This document shows, piece by piece, positions 11,451-48,862 of a stretch of DNA of 49,498 nt. The notes beneath the pieces were generated by a model. The model made no database searches. It was not told where the DNA came from and worked only from the letters and a program-made list of their open reading frames with translations. Position numbers and translations under genes: made by a program. The first letter of the stretch is position 1; every line of letters starts with the position of its first letter. Source of the stretch: Candidatus Thiovulum imperiosus (GTDB lineage Bacteria; Campylobacterota; Campylobacteria; Campylobacterales; Thiovulaceae); the NCBI GenBank assembly GCA_024281175.1, contig JAMJTW010000034.1, positions 97,218-146,715 on the forward strand, in the 5' to 3' direction.

Positions 11451-11576
11451 AAAAGAGTTAAAATTGAGAATAGGAGACCTCTCTATTCTGCTACGCTCCA
11501 CTGCCGTTAAGTTAAGCAGAGTTAGGAAAACTACCGAAAAATGATGAAGCAGACACATAGTTTAGTTCTACTTATT

Positions 11577-11691
11577 CAAAGATTTCTCAATCGCTTTGCT
11601 CATTTCGAAATGACAAAAACAGGACAAACTCGTCATTTCGAACCCTTTTGGGTGAGAAATCTTTATAATCGGAACAGCTTTTGGTAAGTCC
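11577..11691. repeat. MITE-like repeat, copy B, with halves in swapped order
   Basis: The right half of the element (AAAGATTTCTC to CGAAATGAC, 11577-11614) comes first. After 17 bases the left half follows (GTCATTTCGA to GAGAAATCTTT, 11632-11664). A decayed end TTTTGGTAAGTCC lies at 11679-11691. Copies C and D have the order left-right, so this copy may be the junction between two tandem elements that have lost their outer halves. Confidence 0.65.
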
Positions 11692-12876: not shown

Positions 12877-12900
12877 GACAAATTTTAGTTTCTAAAATGA

Positions 12901-13075
12901 GGGGGGTGACCAAATAGACTTCTGCCTCTCTTGTCATTTAGTGAAACTTCGTTTTCGATATGAGCGTAGCGATACAGAAATCTTGGAAACTTATCGTTTT
13001 ACTAAAAGATTTCTCACCCGAAAGGGTTCGAAATGACATATAGGTTGAGCCTAAAAATACTCTTTGGTCAGTCCC
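12901..13075 (-). repeat. MITE-like repeat, copy C, with terminal repeats and target duplication
   Basis: The outer ends are GGGGGGTGACCAAAT (left) and TTTGGTCAGTCCC (right). The core (12933-13037) is the reverse complement of copy D. The 8 bases outside the ends are TAAAATGA and TAAAATAA, a 7 of 8 match that looks like a target duplication. A short insertion near the inner end (GAAACTTCGTTTT region) distinguishes it from copy D. There is no coding capacity. Confidence 0.75.
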
Positions 13076-20020: not shown

Positions 20021-20188
20021 GGGAGTGACCAAATAAAGTATTTTTATATTTCAACAATTTATATGTCATTTCGAACCCTTTCGGGTGAGAAATCTTTTAT
20101 TTGGTAAAACGGTAAGTTTCCAAGATTTCTCAATCGCTACGCTCATATCGAAATGACAAGAGAGGCAGAAACCTGTTTGGTCATTCCC
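20021..20188 (+). repeat. MITE-like repeat, copy D, the best preserved
   Basis: The outer inverted ends are GGGAGTGACCAAA (20021-20033) and TTTGGTCATTCCC (20176-20188). A nested core at 20065-20157 starts GTCATTTCGA and ends TCGAAATGAC and holds the inner pair GAGAAATC/GATTTCTC. The 8 bases on both sides are AAAATTAT (20013-20020 and 20189-20196), a perfect direct repeat. With 168 bases and no gene it fits a non-autonomous transposed element. Confidence 0.8.
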
Positions 20189-20199
20189 AAAATTATAAT

Positions 20200-27209: not shown

Positions 27210-27238
27210 ATTATATGGAATTTTTTTTTTAATGTCAA
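27210..27238 (-). promoter_or_regulatory. consensus sigma-70 promoter of the tRNA cluster
   Basis: On the minus strand TTGACA (27238-27233) and TATAAT (27215-27210) are separated by exactly 17 bases. Both boxes are perfect matches, which is unusual in a genome where -35 boxes are mostly absent. It reads into tRNA-Lys-Glu-Val-Asp. Confidence 0.85.
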
Positions 27239-28170: not shown

Positions 28171-28941
28171 TTAGAACTCTAAATCTTTTAAATCAGAAGA
28201 GTTACAATCAAGCATAAATCCATAATAATCACCATTCTCTTTTCCGAGAGCTTCATAATATGACCACATTTCTCTTGTTGCATTCCTATCAACTTGCCAG
28301 TCTTCTGAGTAAGAGACTTTTTCTCGATAATTCAAAATTAAAGGTTCATCTTGATATGTTGTTACATACATATCTATTTGTGAATTGTAGAAAATTGTAT
28401 GATGAGTGATTGTTTCATTTTCTGTAACTGCAAATACAAAATCTTTCTCTCTTAAACAGCCAAAAAAGAGAGATGGTTTTTCTATTTCAGAACAAAATCT
28501 ATCTCTATTATAAACATCAACAAAATTTTCTGTAACAGGTTTACACTCTTCATATTTTTGACAATTTTCTAAATCCATTGAGTAACAATCAACTGTAACT
28601 ATATCGACCCACTCTCTATTTAAAGGGTTGTTGTTTATATACTCTGAACAATCTTCAATAGCCGTCCAGACTCCAACTTCTCCAGCAAAAAGAACTCCAA
28701 TAACATCATCAGGAGCTACATATTTTGTTACTCCATCTATCTCTTTCGCAACTACATGCTGTTCCCAACATTTTCCTTCAGCTAAGACAATCTCTTCTGT
28801 TAAATATTCAACAGTTGAACTTGACTCTCTCTGTAACTCTGTATCTTCCGTGCTGTTGTCTAGTGCATGGCTAACAATTTCATTTCCATTATCTTTACAC
28901 CCAAAGAAAAACAGGGTAATTAGAAAAGGTATATATCTCAT
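28171..28941 (-). CDS. putative lipoprotein, unknown function
   Basis: The N-terminus RYIPFLITLFFFGC is a lipoprotein signal with the acylated Cys at residue 15. The mature protein of about 240 residues is acidic and has many cysteines (CWEQ, DCSEY, DCYSMDLENCQKYEEC, FCSE, FGC, DCNSS), which suggests disulphides and an extracytoplasmic place. No known domain is seen. It starts 9 bases after the protease gene, so the two are probably co-transcribed from the cassette promoter at 30.7 kb, and the product may be a partner of the protease. Confidence 0.75.
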   Translation of the reverse strand: MRYIPFLITLFFFGCKDNGNEIVSHALDNSTEDTELQRESSSTVEYLTEEIVLAEGKCWEQHVVAKEIDGVTKYVAPDDVIGVLFAGEVGVWTAIEDCSEYINNNPLNREWVDIVTVDCYSMDLENCQKYEECKPVTENFVDVYNRDRFCSEIEKPSLFFGCLREKDFVFAVTENETITHHTIFYNSQIDMYVTTYQDEPLILNYREKVSYSEDWQVDRNATREMWSYYEALGKENGDYYGFMLDCNSSDLKDLEF

Positions 28942-28950
28942 TTTAAACTC

Positions 28951-30621
28951 CTAATATTTCATCTCATTTGAAGAGAGACCAAAGTAGAGTTTTCCTGTAT
29001 TTTTATAAAACTCTCTTTTCACTTCAATTGTATAGTAACCACTTTTTGTAGGTGTAAATTCAGCTATCTCAAAAGGATTTTTATCACTATCTGTTTTAAC
29101 TAAGTTGGCAACTTCTTTTCCACCATATTTAATAGTTAAAGAGAAATCTAAATTTAAGGCTTTATTTTTATTTGCGTATTCTGGTTCAACAAGCCATGCA
29201 ATCGCAACTCTCTCTCTCATTCCTTTTCTCATATATCGACGAACAGTTTTTACGCTTCCATCTTTTGAAAAGTAATTTTTAACACTTCCAACCCAAGAAG
29301 TTCTATAAAAAGTGTTGATATAGTTATATCTTGGAGAACCAGCTCCCTCTTGTGGATTTAGAATTCCCTTTTCACCTGTAATATTTTCAGATGTACTTAA
29401 GAGAAATGCTTTTAAAAGTTCTGGACGACCCCGAAAAAGTGGATATTGAGAGAGAAGATTTACACCAAAACCAGAAGCAACAAATGGAGAAGCTAAACTT
29501 GAACCACTATCTTGTGTTACCCAATTACCATTTTTTTGAATTCTTGGAAAAGTAAAATGTCCTTGGGCTATTATTTCAGGTTTTTCTACTCCTGTTTCAG
29601 GATTATTATAGACCAATTTACTGAAATTATTATTAGTTATATCATAATTAGAAACAGTAATAACATTATATCCTTTACCTGGAGAAGTTATATCTAAATT
29701 CCCTGAACTTCCTCTATTACCACTACTTTTAAAAGAGGCAACTCTCTGTTTGTAAACTAATTTATCGAGTTCATTGTCGTTACTAGTGTAATCACTATTA
29801 CCACTATATCCGTAAGAGTGATTGCTAATCCAAATCTTTGGTTCTGCATCATTGATTGTTTTAGTATCATAATCACCCAACTCCATACAGTGAATATGAG
29901 CTTTTTCTGAAGATGCATGAATGATATGACCAACAATATTTGCATGATAACTAAGATTAATATCTTGTGCATCATTATAAGTATTCATTCTTGAACTATC
30001 TAAACTACCATAATTTGTGTCTGGACAAGCTACCTCATATTGACTTCCTGAAACTTCCCATAACATAACTCCTATCTGTTGGTTTTGCTGACTTTGACCC
30101 CAAACACGAAAAGGAGTATTATCCCAAAGTAGAGATGGGTCTACTCCTGTTAGTCGAAGAGTTTCTGGAACATCTTCATATTCACTTTCCGCTTCTACCT
30201 CTTCAATAATGTCTTCAACAAAAAAGTAGTGTGCTGTAAGTTCGGCAATGTCATCACCAGAAAGGTCATCTGAATTTACAACAATTCGAGAACCCATAAT
30301 CTTATAAGGAATTCCTTTTTCTTCTAAAATTGATGATATTTGAGTAGCCATAATCTCTTCTTTAAGAAGATAACTTCTATTTTTTATCTCAATATCACTC
30401 TCTAGCTTCTGGTTAAGTTCATCAATTTTTTCAAAATCAACTTCCTCTCCATTAACTTTATAAGAGCTTATTTCCCCATCAACAACTTCTGACTCGATAG
30501 CTACATCATCATAAGTAGGGTCGTGGTTTGGAACATTTAGGATAATCGCGAGTTTTTTAACCTCTCCACCATATAGAAAAATAGAAAAGAAGAGCATTGT
30601 GCTTATGACTCTTAAAAACAT
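28951..30621 (-). CDS. secreted subtilisin-like serine protease (S8 family), Glu at the Asp site
   Basis: A signal peptide (FLRVISTMLFFSIFLYGG) is followed by a propeptide-like region (about 20-165). The subtilase core then shows QIGVMLWEVSG, YHANIVGHII (H226), WISNHSYGYSG (oxyanion N267) and GSSLASPFVASG (nucleophile S375). At the first triad site, where subtilases have Asp (as in VGVWDGG relatives), this protein reads E189. A beta-rich C-terminal domain (about 440-556) resembles the pre-peptidase C-terminal type. The ATG has GGAGG about 10 bases upstream and overlaps a 17-codon leader frame. Likely substrate is unknown. Confidence 0.85.
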   Translation of the reverse strand: MFLRVISTMLFFSIFLYGGEVKKLAIILNVPNHDPTYDDVAIESEVVDGEISSYKVNGEEVDFEKIDELNQKLESDIEIKNRSYLLKEEIMATQISSILEEKGIPYKIMGSRIVVNSDDLSGDDIAELTAHYFFVEDIIEEVEAESEYEDVPETLRLTGVDPSLLWDNTPFRVWGQSQQNQQIGVMLWEVSGSQYEVACPDTNYGSLDSSRMNTYNDAQDINLSYHANIVGHIIHASSEKAHIHCMELGDYDTKTINDAEPKIWISNHSYGYSGNSDYTSNDNELDKLVYKQRVASFKSSGNRGSSGNLDITSPGKGYNVITVSNYDITNNNFSKLVYNNPETGVEKPEIIAQGHFTFPRIQKNGNWVTQDSGSSLASPFVASGFGVNLLSQYPLFRGRPELLKAFLLSTSENITGEKGILNPQEGAGSPRYNYINTFYRTSWVGSVKNYFSKDGSVKTVRRYMRKGMRERVAIAWLVEPEYANKNKALNLDFSLTIKYGGKEVANLVKTDSDKNPFEIAEFTPTKSGYYTIEVKREFYKNTGKLYFGLSSNEMKY

Positions 30622-30665
30622 TTAAAACTACCTCCAAAAAGAGAAGCGAGAATGAATTTTTTCAT
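30612..30665 (-). CDS. 17-residue leader peptide ahead of the protease
   Basis: The frame MKKFILASLFGGSFKCF starts behind GGAGG with 6-base spacing, stronger than most sites here. It ends 10 bases inside the protease gene in another frame. Its first seven residues (MKKFILA) and all upstream DNA are shared with the leader at 46229. It reads like the beginning of a signal peptide. It may couple translation to the protease start or be a relic of the gene that originally followed the cassette. Confidence 0.5.
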   Translation of the reverse strand: MKKFILASLFGGSFKCF

Positions 30666-30945
30666 CTCATACCTCCGAAATTTATTTGGTAAGATTATAT
30701 ATAGTTAAAGCTAAAAAAAAAAAAACAGTTTTAAATATAAGAAAAATTTTTTAAGAAAGATATATATATGTTATAAAATATGAATAAAATTGCTTTCACA
30801 AAATCTATTTTCAGAAAAAATAGTAGCGGTAAAACCATGCTTTTCAAAATTTTAAATTCTTAGGTTTCTCAAAATCTTCAAAAATATGATTTAAGAAAAT
30901 ATTTCTCTGTTTTCTGGATAGGAAACAAATTTTGTTAGAGTTTTG
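30644..30945 (-). repeat. promoter-leader cassette, left inverted copy
   Basis: This stretch is the reverse complement of 45952-46250 with, by eye, about 85-90% identity, and is nearly identical over the last 70 bases. Read on the minus strand it holds conserved upstream DNA including GTTTTACCGCTACTATTTTT, a run of 13 T (30725-30713), TATAAT (30699-30694), GGAGG (30676-30672) and the leader start. Homology stops inside the leader codons. It drives the protease and lipoprotein genes. The 300-base gap to the HEPN gene holds nothing else. Confidence 0.85.
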
Positions 30946-30964
30946 CTAAAACGGAATTTTTAAA

Positions 30965-45206: not shown

Positions 45207-45950
45207 GTGAAGTCACACTTCAACAATAATTTACAAGGAGGATTGGATATTTCAAAAAATTTTATTTCATATATCCCAAATGGCTTGTGCAGTGTGAATT
45301 TAAAAGTTTCAGAAAATCTTGTTAATGAGTTTCCAGAGTGTTTCGATTTTGAAAACTCTTATAAGCTCAAAATTCACTATTCTCAAAATGGTGATGAGGT
45401 AGAGTTCTTGCCTCTTTTTGGAAATGACTACAATGAAACATCTTTTCATTGGGATTTTGGTAATGGAGAAACTTCAAATTTAGAGAAGCCAACTCATCGA
45501 TATGAAAAGTATGGAAACTATGAAGTTGTTTTAAAAGCTGGAAACTTAGAAGTTGTGAAAGAGATAGATTTTTGGAAAAGAGAATTAGAAATTGAAGCAA
45601 GAAAGTGGTATCTTCTCTCAAATCCAACTAGAGAAATTTTGTATCTTCCTGAAAATACTGTTTCTTGGGTATTTAGAAGAGAAGAATGGATTTTAAACCC
45701 TCTCTGGATTGAACCAACTGAAGGTTTCTTTCTAAAAAGTGAAAAAGATTTCACCCTTGAATTTGATGGAACAAATTACTCAAAAATAGAGCCGTCTAAC
45801 AAATGGCAACTTTTGGGAAATGGAGAAAGTTCATACAATTTAGAAAAGAGTTACATTTTTAGAAATGGAAGTTGGATTGTAAATCCTGAAAAAATAGAAC
45901 CTTTTGAAGGCTTCTGGTTAAAAGATATTTTTCATACTTCTAGTTTTTAA
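45207..45950 (+). CDS. PKD-domain protein with two C-terminal Trp-rich repeats
   Basis: A PKD domain is clear at about 65-115 (FHWDFGNGETSNLEKPTHRY, then YGNYEVVLKAG). Two copies of a Trp-rich repeat follow: the first (about 132-190) runs WYLLSNPTREILY...EGFFLK and the second (about 197-243) runs WQLLGNGESSYNL...EGFWLK, sharing W.LL.N, F R..W..NP..IEP.EGF.LK. No signal peptide is seen. The frame begins with GTG directly after the HAD stop. A much better AAGGAGG lies at 45235-45241, inside the frame, with no normal start codon at the right distance (an ATT is at 45249). The true start is therefore uncertain. Confidence 0.7.
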   Translation: MKSHFNNNLQGGLDISKNFISYIPNGLCSVNLKVSENLVNEFPECFDFENSYKLKIHYSQNGDEVEFLPLFGNDYNETSFHWDFGNGETSNLEKPTHRYEKYGNYEVVLKAGNLEVVKEIDFWKRELEIEARKWYLLSNPTREILYLPENTVSWVFRREEWILNPLWIEPTEGFFLKSEKDFTLEFDGTNYSKIEPSNKWQLLGNGESSYNLEKSYIFRNGSWIVNPEKIEPFEGFWLKDIFHTSSF

Positions 45951-45951
45951 T

Positions 45952-46250
45952 AAAAGTTTAACAGAGCTTGTTTTCAAAATAGAAAACAGAGAAATATTTT
46001 CTTAAATCATATTTTTGAATATTTGAAGAAACTTAAGAATTCATGATTTCAAAAAACACTGTTTTACCGCTACTATTTTTCTAAAAATATATTTTGTGAA
46101 AGTAATTTCAATCATATTTTACAACATATACTTGATTTTCTTAAGAAATTTTTCTTATATTCAAAACAGTTTTTTTTTTTTAGTTTTAACTATATATAAT
46201 CTTACCAAATAAATTTCGGAGGTATGAGATGAAAAAATTCATTCTCGCTT
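45952..46250 (+). repeat. promoter-leader cassette, right inverted copy
   Basis: This is the partner of 30644-30945 in the opposite orientation, 15 kb away. It carries the shared GTTTTACCGCTACTATTTTT block, a run of 12 T (46170-46181), TATAAT (46195-46200), GGAGG (46218-46222) and the leader start ATGAAAAAATTC. It fills the 278-base gap upstream of the lipoprotein operon, and I see no other feature in that gap. Confidence 0.85.
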
Positions 46251-46273
46251 TTGCTGTAAAGGTTAAATCATGA
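46229..46273 (+). CDS. 14-residue leader peptide ahead of the lipoprotein operon
   Basis: MKKFILAFAVKVKS starts 6 bases after GGAGG, and its TGA overlaps the ATG of the next gene. The first seven residues equal those of the leader at 30665; then the two diverge. In both cases the leader and the main gene are offset by the same frame, and an in-frame stop closely precedes the main ATG. Coupled re-initiation is therefore likely rather than frameshift fusion. Confidence 0.5.
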   Translation: MKKFILAFAVKVKS

Positions 46274-47235
46274 ACCTTGTTAAACCACTTATGTTACTCT
46301 TAACACTTATAGTTGCAATTATATTTACTGGCTGTAACAACAACTCTTCTGAAGAGATAAGCTATCAAAATAGGGTTACTCTTGACAAAGAGTTAAAGTC
46401 AGGTAGTGTCAATAAAATTAGTTTCAAACTAGACACTCTAACTATCACAGATAATATACTTGTAAAGCTACCTTTTCAAATTATAAATCCAGTGCTAATA
46501 AATTTTTATGATGAAAACCGTGTGCAGATAAATTCTAATCAAATCTCTTTTTCGGAAGATGATTGGAATGAGTATTCAAAAGTTATTTTTGATAGAGAAA
46601 TAGATGTAGCAAATATCTATTATCAAATTGAAGATATGGAAAATCAAGGGGATACATCTTCTTTTATTAGACTTGTATCCGATGAATTTATAGGAGAAAA
46701 TCAGAAAGAAGTAAAATCAGAGAGTCCTATTTTAAGTGAAGAGCAATATGCTGAGCTTTTAGAAATGGGTTACTCTTCTGAAGAGATAGATGAAGCATTA
46801 TCTTCTCCAGCTATTGATGGAAATGAATATGTTTTAAATATTTCACCTGTTTTAAATGAAACTCAAGTAGGAAGCAGAGAAATAAAATCAAATTCTTGCA
46901 CTAGTACTGTTTGGACCTCTTATGGATATAATGTTTCATGGGACTGGAAAATTTTATGGCTTCAATACACAATGAAAGCATATACAAATTTTAAAGATAA
47001 TTGTAACAATCCTTTAAAAGCAGATGTTATTAAAACAGGTATACTTATAGGAGAAAATAGTCGTGATGTTATTGATGATAAAGTAAAGTCTGGAACAAAT
47101 GTATCTAAAGTAAAAATTGATAAAAAAGATACAGTCATTGATACTAATGGAGTTCCAAAAATAAAATATATCGAGTCTACTCATTATATAAAATATGGTA
47201 AGTGGCTTGATAAAACTTATAGACTTTATGATTAA
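46270..47235 (+). CDS. putative lipoprotein, unknown function
   Basis: The signal VKPLMLLLTLIVAIIFTGC ends in a lipobox with Cys at residue 22, followed by an Asn/Ser linker. The mature 300-residue protein is acidic, with a predicted beta-rich N-terminal half and a basic C-terminal half. It contains one motif resembling a UBA/EF-like helix pair (SEEQYAELLEMGYSSEEIDE). No named domain is recognised. It heads an operon of exported proteins driven by the cassette promoter, parallel to the protease operon at 30.6 kb. Confidence 0.75.
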   Translation: MNLVKPLMLLLTLIVAIIFTGCNNNSSEEISYQNRVTLDKELKSGSVNKISFKLDTLTITDNILVKLPFQIINPVLINFYDENRVQINSNQISFSEDDWNEYSKVIFDREIDVANIYYQIEDMENQGDTSSFIRLVSDEFIGENQKEVKSESPILSEEQYAELLEMGYSSEEIDEALSSPAIDGNEYVLNISPVLNETQVGSREIKSNSCTSTVWTSYGYNVSWDWKILWLQYTMKAYTNFKDNCNNPLKADVIKTGILIGENSRDVIDDKVKSGTNVSKVKIDKKDTVIDTNGVPKIKYIESTHYIKYGKWLDKTYRLYD

Positions 47236-47737
47236 CTTTAGGTTTATATTTTTTATTCTTCTTTTATCCTTTTCTCTTTTTGGGGAAGAGGATAACCAAA
47301 AAGTTAGTTTTGGAACAGGATTAGGTCTAGAGTATGGTGTTCTTGGCTTCCAAACTTCTATGGAACTCTTTTCAGGTAATAGAGTTTTCTTTTCAGCTCT
47401 TCCAATCCAGCCATATATTCATGCACTTGGTGTCTCATCAGACTTATATTTTCTTAAAGATACAAATTTTAGAACTCACTTAACTTATGGTACAACAAGC
47501 TGGGGTTATTCAACTTATCAAAATATGACAAATCAAAGTTTAGGATTTTCAACAGGAGTGAACTATTACTTTTATAAGCCTTATAAGGGTTGGCACTTTG
47601 GACTAGATTATGTTTTATCTGAAACAGATTATAAATATCACTTTAAAGGTTTTGGTTTTTCCAAATGGTCTAAATCTGGTGATAACATATATAGAGACTC
47701 AAGTTTGTTGCGATGGTCATTAGGTTATAAATTTTGA
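47228..47737 (+). CDS. small outer membrane beta-barrel-like protein, paralogue 1
   Basis: The ATG at 47228 gives a clean signal peptide (INFRFIFFILLLSFSLFG); the frame is open from 47195, but that start adds residues before it. The mature protein (about 150 residues) is made of short amphipathic strands and ends LGYKF, a C-terminal Phe barrel signature. It is a close paralogue of the next gene (shared VSFGTG, GFQTSME, RVFFS, IQPYIH, SSDLYFLK, NFRT, GYKF). It overlaps the lipoprotein gene by 8 bases. Confidence 0.78.
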   Translation: MINFRFIFFILLLSFSLFGEEDNQKVSFGTGLGLEYGVLGFQTSMELFSGNRVFFSALPIQPYIHALGVSSDLYFLKDTNFRTHLTYGTTSWGYSTYQNMTNQSLGFSTGVNYYFYKPYKGWHFGLDYVLSETDYKYHFKGFGFSKWSKSGDNIYRDSSLLRWSLGYKF

Positions 47738-48225
47738 AAAAGATAATACTTTTTATTTTTTTATCCTTTTCTCTTTTTGGAGAAGAGAATAATTCCAAAG
47801 TCAGTTTTGGAACAGGTATTGGTCAAGAGTATGGAGTTTTTGGTTTTCAAACTTCTATGGAAGTTTTTTCAGGCAGTAGAGTTTTCTTTTCATTTTTCCC
47901 TATCCAGCCATACATTCACACAATTGGTATATCATCTGATTTATATTTTCTTAAAAACACAAACTTTAGAACATATTTAGCCTATGGAACATTTGTTTTT
48001 AGTCCCCTAAATAATACTACTATGAACCACATGCTTAGCACATCAATAGGTTTGGACTATTACTTCTCTAAACCATATCAAGGTTGGCACTTAGGAGTTG
48101 GTACAATGATATATAGTTCTCAATACACATATGATTGGAAAAGTTTTGGTTTTTCAGATTGGCACAAATATGACTCAGGGTATGGAACTATACCAATAGT
48201 TTTTTCATTAGGTTATAAATTTTAA
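47734..48225 (+). CDS. small outer membrane beta-barrel-like protein, paralogue 2
   Basis: The TTG start overlaps the stop of paralogue 1 (TTGA). The signal peptide is KKIILFIFLSFSLFG. It has the same strand pattern and the same LGYKF end as paralogue 1. The two differ most in the region around residues 90-150, likely surface loops. DNA identity is highest in the 5' third, so this is a tandem duplication that has diverged in loops. Confidence 0.78.
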   Translation: MKKIILFIFLSFSLFGEENNSKVSFGTGIGQEYGVFGFQTSMEVFSGSRVFFSFFPIQPYIHTIGISSDLYFLKNTNFRTYLAYGTFVFSPLNNTTMNHMLSTSIGLDYYFSKPYQGWHLGVGTMIYSSQYTYDWKSFGFSDWHKYDSGYGTIPIVFSLGYKF

Positions 48226-48226
48226 A

Positions 48227-48862
48227 ATGCAAATATTTTTCATATTTCTCCTCCTTTTGGGAGGATGCAAAAAATCGTCTCAAGAAGAATTTCGAAAAGA
48301 TATTTTCTACATAGAGTATTATAAAGATCCAAAATATAGGTGGGGACCTCCAGATAAGTTAAATTATCAATTTAGCTATATCGCTTTCAATAGCAATTTT
48401 GTTTCAATTGATGAATATTTTTATATGGAAGATATAAAAATAGAGAATTTTGGGAACCGATTTGTCCGTCTTGTTGGAGATGGCTTTACAGAAGCTTTAT
48501 ATGGGGAGGATGTAAATTACTCAAACAAACCATTAGATTATCAATGGGGCTATCATTATAAGATTGAAGGATTTGTTACTCCTCTTATTGGTGAACACTC
48601 AATTTCAATAGAAATGAAAAGAGTTATTTCAAAGGAGAAAGTTTTTAAACCATTTACAATTACATTTGAAACAAAATTTGAAAGTGAATACTTAATTGAG
48701 AAAGTTTCAAACAGAACTTATTTAGTTTATAATGAATTAGAATTTGATATTTATCAAGATTTAGAACATGAATTTTTAGAAAAAATGGAAAAAAACTCCA
48801 CAATAACTCTAAGTTTTGACTTTGAAGAGAATGGAACAATCTATCTAAAAGATGTTTTATAA
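48227..48862 (+). CDS. putative lipoprotein, unknown function
   Basis: The N-terminus QIFFIFLLLLGGC is a lipoprotein signal with Cys at residue 14, then KKSSQEE. The mature protein of about 198 residues is rich in aromatic and acidic residues and appears beta-rich. No family is recognised. It is the last gene of the cassette-driven operon (1-base gap from paralogue 2) and precedes the rRNA leader. Confidence 0.75.
   Translation: MQIFFIFLLLLGGCKKSSQEEFRKDIFYIEYYKDPKYRWGPPDKLNYQFSYIAFNSNFVSIDEYFYMEDIKIENFGNRFVRLVGDGFTEALYGEDVNYSNKPLDYQWGYHYKIEGFVTPLIGEHSISIEMKRVISKEKVFKPFTITFETKFESEYLIEKVSNRTYLVYNELEFDIYQDLEHEFLEKMEKNSTITLSFDFEENGTIYLKDVL

Follow-up and report, generated by a model that had tools for sequence, protein, structure and literature searches.

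Unequal T-tracts in a duplicated promoter module of Candidatus Thiovulum imperiosus: a possible length-tuned promoter element

Two operons of Candidatus Thiovulum imperiosus lie behind homopolymeric T-tracts of 13 and 12 residues, raising the question of whether tract length acts on promoter strength, and whether it changes within a population or differs only between copies. The original prediction, made on the window (the whole stretch of 49,498 nucleotides analysed here), placed each tract 13 bases before a TATAAT box, and this reading is confirmed, with the left copy on the minus strand and the right copy on the plus strand. Both tracts belong to copies of a promoter module of about 300 bp, laid out as follows:

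30644-30951, minus strand: left copy of the module (upstream region, T-tract, -10 box, GGAGG and MKKFIL leader start)
30733-30753, minus strand: AT-rich UP-like block upstream of the left tract (TAAAAAATTTTTCTTATATTT; 12/15 consensus positions)
30713-30725, minus strand: T13 tract (A13 on the plus strand)
30700-30712, minus strand: gap of 13 nt from tract to -10 box
30694-30699, minus strand: -10 box TATAAT, 13 nt 3' of the T13 tract
45945-46250, plus strand: right copy of the module, same layout
46142-46162, plus strand: AT-rich UP-like block upstream of the right tract (TAAGAAATTTTTCTTATATTC; 11/15, not significant alone)
46170-46181, plus strand: T12 tract
46182-46194, plus strand: gap of 13 nt from tract to -10 box
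46195-46200, plus strand: -10 box TATAAT, 13 nt 3' of the T12 tract

The two copies are inverted relative to each other and lie 15 kb apart with housekeeping genes between them, and the leader start in both is ATGAAAAAATTC, placed after GGAGG. The further claim of near-identical flanks holds between the tract and a point about 20 nt beyond the ATG (95-100% identity) but not upstream, where identity falls to 84% over about 215 nt; from tract to leader the copies agree at 65/66 positions (Fisher p = 0.001 for the two segments). In both, the T-tract covers the -35 position and is separated by 13 nt from the perfect TATAAT downstream. No TTGACA-like -35 hexamer was found 16-18 bp from the left TATAAT (best match 2/6), and the right copy reads the same there. 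The UP-like blocks beside the tract score 11-12/15 in the left and right copies and in a third one on contig C13, values with a chance of 12-45% in AT-rich DNA; the left score has about a 12% chance of arising somewhere in 90 positions and is suggestive only. Neither a terminator at the tract nor an Rfam match in the promoter module was found. Further upstream, a block around TTTTACCGCTACTATTTT (for example at about 46060-46082, plus strand) is nearly invariant in the full module copies and might be a regulator site.

Using the module as a DNA query against its own genome (2.20 Mb, 36 contigs), we found that the two predicted cassettes are real but that their count was incomplete, as the family comprises four intact copies, two partial ones and three relatives. 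The intact copies (class A) are the right copy with T12, the left copy with T13 and two further ones with T14 and T6, and in all four the tract-to--10 distance is fixed at 13 nt whereas tract length is free. Upstream identity among the module copies is 82-91%, and the core is 84-100% identical by segment. The members outside the window are:

C13:15569-15881: intact copy, T14
C14:25945-26227: intact copy, T6, the module being kept without a long tract
Start of contig C16: fifth copy, cut off by the contig start
C14:24089-24246: remnant with both ends kept, tract and -10 box lost
C14:90967-90976: T10 of a class B promoter that precedes a lipoprotein operon

Class B consists of three diverged promoters with the same layout, of which the T8 (C6) and T9 (C5) members precede paralogous S8 proteases, the one on C5 without a good -10 box. 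Family members lie at or close to the ends of several contigs. The pattern T6, 9-14 nt, TATA and then ATGAAAAA picks out six distinct promoters, all of the module family, with one match in the reversed control; in related genomes its matches hardly exceed the control, if at all. The module is absent from the congener by DNA search and from the family members searched, and the exact core pattern has no match in viral contigs. In the C14:24089-24246 remnant, the TAA of the leader ORF immediately precedes the GTG of a ribBA-like gene.

Downstream of the two window copies we find short leaders followed by genes for secreted proteins, lipoproteins and outer-membrane-like proteins:

30612-30665, minus strand: 17-codon leader ORF (MKKFILASLFGGSFKCF, then stop), overlapping the protease start codon
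28951-30621, minus strand: secreted subtilisin-like protease, first main gene of the left operon (Peptidase_S8, PF00082, E 1.1e-14)
28171-28941, minus strand: lipoprotein-like gene, second of the left operon, related to the C14 lipoproteins and to the T. stygium operon
46229-46273, plus strand: 14-codon leader ORF (MKKFILAFAVKVKS, then stop), its TGA overlapping the next ATG (ATGA)
46270-47235, plus strand: lipoprotein-like gene, first main gene of the right operon, no Pfam match
47195-47737, plus strand: probable outer-membrane protein, first of a tandem pair
47734-48225, plus strand: probable outer-membrane protein, second of the pair, weak DUF3575 match
48227-48862, plus strand: further lipoprotein-like gene in the right operon, sharing 40% identity with the second gene of the C13 (T14) operon

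The C13 operon encodes an astacin/matrixin-like metalloprotease and a lipoprotein, and the T6 copy on C14 precedes a 78-residue secreted peptide. In the window copies, the original signal-peptide gene has been cut to a leader of 17 (left) or 14 codons (right) that overlaps the next start codon, suggesting that the module acts as a portable unit of promoter, ribosome site and leader that has been joined to different genes, with the overlap probably coupling translation to the next gene. The tandem pair of the right operon goes back to a duplication (47246-47494 and 47743-47991, 81%) that gave two outer-membrane-like proteins.

Genome-wide pattern searches show how unusual these tracts are. A/T runs of 9, 10, 11, 12, 13 and 14 occur 30, 9, 1, 1, 1 and 1 times, and of runs of at least 12, for which extrapolation predicts 0.3-0.7, all three seen lie in the module family; as they share one ancestor, they represent one event kept in three copies rather than three independent ones. 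T7 followed at 11-14 nt by TATAAT occurs at five distinct places in the genome, three of them in the module family and one inside coding sequence, against two in the reversed control, and the longest T run upstream of the -10 box in the window's ordinary promoters is 3-6. We accordingly reject the T-tract as a general feature upstream of every promoter of this genome. Tract purity was likewise discarded as proof of selection: three unbroken 12-mers have a probability of about 5% at the flank rate of about 8% change per copy and about 30% at the core rate.

We tentatively read the module's T-tract as a functional, length-tuned promoter element, a reading to which we give a little less than an even chance. 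The duplicated module would drive several secreted-protease and lipoprotein operons in Ca. T. imperiosus, the tract would stand in for the -35 hexamer and work like the sabA tract of Helicobacter pylori, and each T gained or lost would shift the angle between the core and the RNA-polymerase contact region upstream by about 34 degrees, with a stepwise effect on promoter strength. The sabA principle is suggested by the tract over the -35 position, the AT-rich block upstream of it and the constant 13-nt gap combined with free tract length. In sabA, a T-tract beside the -35 alters how the upstream boxes contacted by polymerase are angled towards the core promoter, mRNA levels with T12 and T15 being 60% and 75% of that with T13 (PMC4081817). 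The likeness extends to a poly-T of similar length (the sabA optimum is T13) beside or over the -35 position, AT-rich sequence on its upstream side (in Thiovulum a weak UP-like match), a surface or secreted protein downstream and the order Campylobacterales, and the sabA-type hallmark of an A/T run of at least nine at or over -35 is present in the T12, T13 and T14 copies and missing from the T6 copy. However, sabA has a recognisable -35 beside its tract (TGGAAT, 16 bp, TAAAAT), whereas in Thiovulum the tract occupies that place; with no hexamer between tract and -10 box, the Thiovulum element can be said to work like sabA but not to be a sabA promoter. Further differences are that one module has been copied to several operons, and that length variation and its effect were measured for sabA while for Thiovulum they are predicted from sequence.

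Outer-membrane genes are enriched among the H. pylori genes with such tracts, accounting for 15 of the 25 (PMC4081817). The Thiovulum copies resemble hopZ and other members of this set in having A/T tracts of at least nine near or within the core promoter (table 2 of PMC4081817), but the latter are separate promoters in a host-associated organism of a different family rather than one duplicated module. A second comparison comes from the two inverted copies in the window. The sap locus of Campylobacter fetus has a conserved 5' region common to its surface genes and an invertible promoter. The Thiovulum module likewise places a conserved region before several surface genes, with two copies inverted, but unlike in sap each copy has its own promoter and start. 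An invertible promoter was rejected here, as the left and right promoters are both complete and bear no trace of a promoter-switching inversion.

For a length-tuned element, we infer support from the position of the tract, the fixed 13-nt gap, the genome's only runs of at least 12, the secreted-protein and lipoprotein genes downstream, the absence of MutL and the sabA precedent; the weak UP-like match, the tracts held at fixed spacing in tRNA promoters and the T6 copy lacking a long tract count against it. The same facts can be accommodated by a static element, in which the tract is fixed in place of the -35 hexamer, the lengths 6, 12, 13 and 14 are frozen divergence among old paralogs, without switching, and one T has little effect, an explanation we also take seriously while keeping it below even. 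Copies that are 82-91% identical upstream should carry indels in their longest homopolymer, and long T/A tracts not expected to switch sit in the tRNA and HU promoter spacers of Thiovulaceae. In four tRNA promoters of this genome the spacer, exactly 17 bp long, contains an A-tract of A8-A10, and T11 tracts occur in the tRNA and HU promoters of related Thiovulaceae, so that tracts can be purely structural and do not imply variability. Yet tRNA promoters keep their spacing constant, while the module tract ranges freely over 6-14 T within a well-conserved core, and the missing MutL also sits poorly with a frozen tract. The tRNA promoters themselves (27210-27238, minus strand, and three further loci) read TTGACA/T-17-TATAAT/TACAAT and serve as an internal control of non-varying tracts.

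Whether the length-tuned element also varies, as the original prediction of phase-variable operons would have it, is a separate matter. MutL was not found in the window's genome or in three relatives (4/4 Thiovulaceae tested), although control genomes gave matches; MutS is represented by one MutS1-like protein, below cut-off, and by a shorter MutS-like one. The missing MutL should favour slippage and, like a tract longer than composition would predict, is a feature expected of a phase-variable (contingency) locus. With about 15% divergence among the module copies outside the core, however, unequal tracts are to be expected even without switching, and the 12/13 difference is what ordinary divergence of a long homopolymer should produce between copies 84% identical upstream. 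That the two operons would be independently set follows trivially from their having two paralogous tracts. High polyploidy has been observed in giant bacteria of other species (PMC10580974), and the giant Thiovulum cell probably holds many chromosomes; such a cell would average tract states over its chromosomes, which counts against the leading reading as well. We consider it plausible, though clearly less likely than not, that the tract slips fast enough for reversible length variation in the population. Less probable again is a scheme in which slippage on single chromosomes of one cell would yield graded dosage within the cell rather than on/off states between cells, the portable module thereby tuning an entire set of secreted proteases and lipoproteins. 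A search of the available literature library for phase variation in Thiovulum returned no paper.

The 12 versus 13 difference might also be an artefact of slippage in MDA or Nextera PCR or an error of the assembly consensus, which we regard as improbable. The genome derives from one cell of about 50 um through REPLI-g MDA and Nextera XT Illumina sequencing (PMC9938260), so that a one-T difference is near the level of amplification error, and the contig ends at or near family copies point the same way; the copies nevertheless have distinct flanks, a 13-base run is well within one read, and the T14 and T6 copies make length diversity as such hard to ascribe to error. Very improbable, finally, is a tract lying in the transcript leader of an upstream promoter and acting by reiterative transcription or mRNA stability: a TATATT just 5' of the tract is conserved as CTTATATT in 4/4 intact copies and TTGATT-18-TATATT is present in the right copy, but TTGATT is not kept in the left copy and the perfect downstream TATAAT sits in the best conserved part.

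Tract tuning was worked out before in host-associated Helicobacter; a free-living giant sulfur bacterium from the same order is now found to have a sabA-like layout, repeated in front of several operons for secreted proteins. If tract length matters, such tuning would predate, or be independent of, host immunity. A giant cell, if it holds many chromosomes, would also offer a testable case of phase variation inside a single cell.

Several observations concern relatives. Comparison of the cytochrome c biogenesis protein places Candidatus Thiovulum stygium (CP091137.1) closest; its orthologous S8-protease/lipoprotein operon (1245500-1250500) has G7 three bases before TATAAT and no T-tract. The protease frame of this operon is split in two, and near-identical 85-aa ORFs lie on both sides of the operon. 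In another relative, G001 (probably Thiovulum ES), two paralogous promoters 3.2 kb apart have T11 and T12 between -35 and -10, so that their spacers measure 14 and 16 bp. They lie close to repeated HTH genes whose N-termini are shared, and this pair is a better textbook candidate for spacer-length variation than the T-tract module. A 33-T run in the assembly of one relative (G002:C160:2762-2794) is perhaps an artefact of assembly. In the window itself, a dispersed intergenic repeat (TTTCCAAGATTTCTCAATCGCTACGCTCATATCGAAATGACAA and neighbours) occurs in both orientations at 26-78, 11564-11616, 12893-13047 and 20055-20197.
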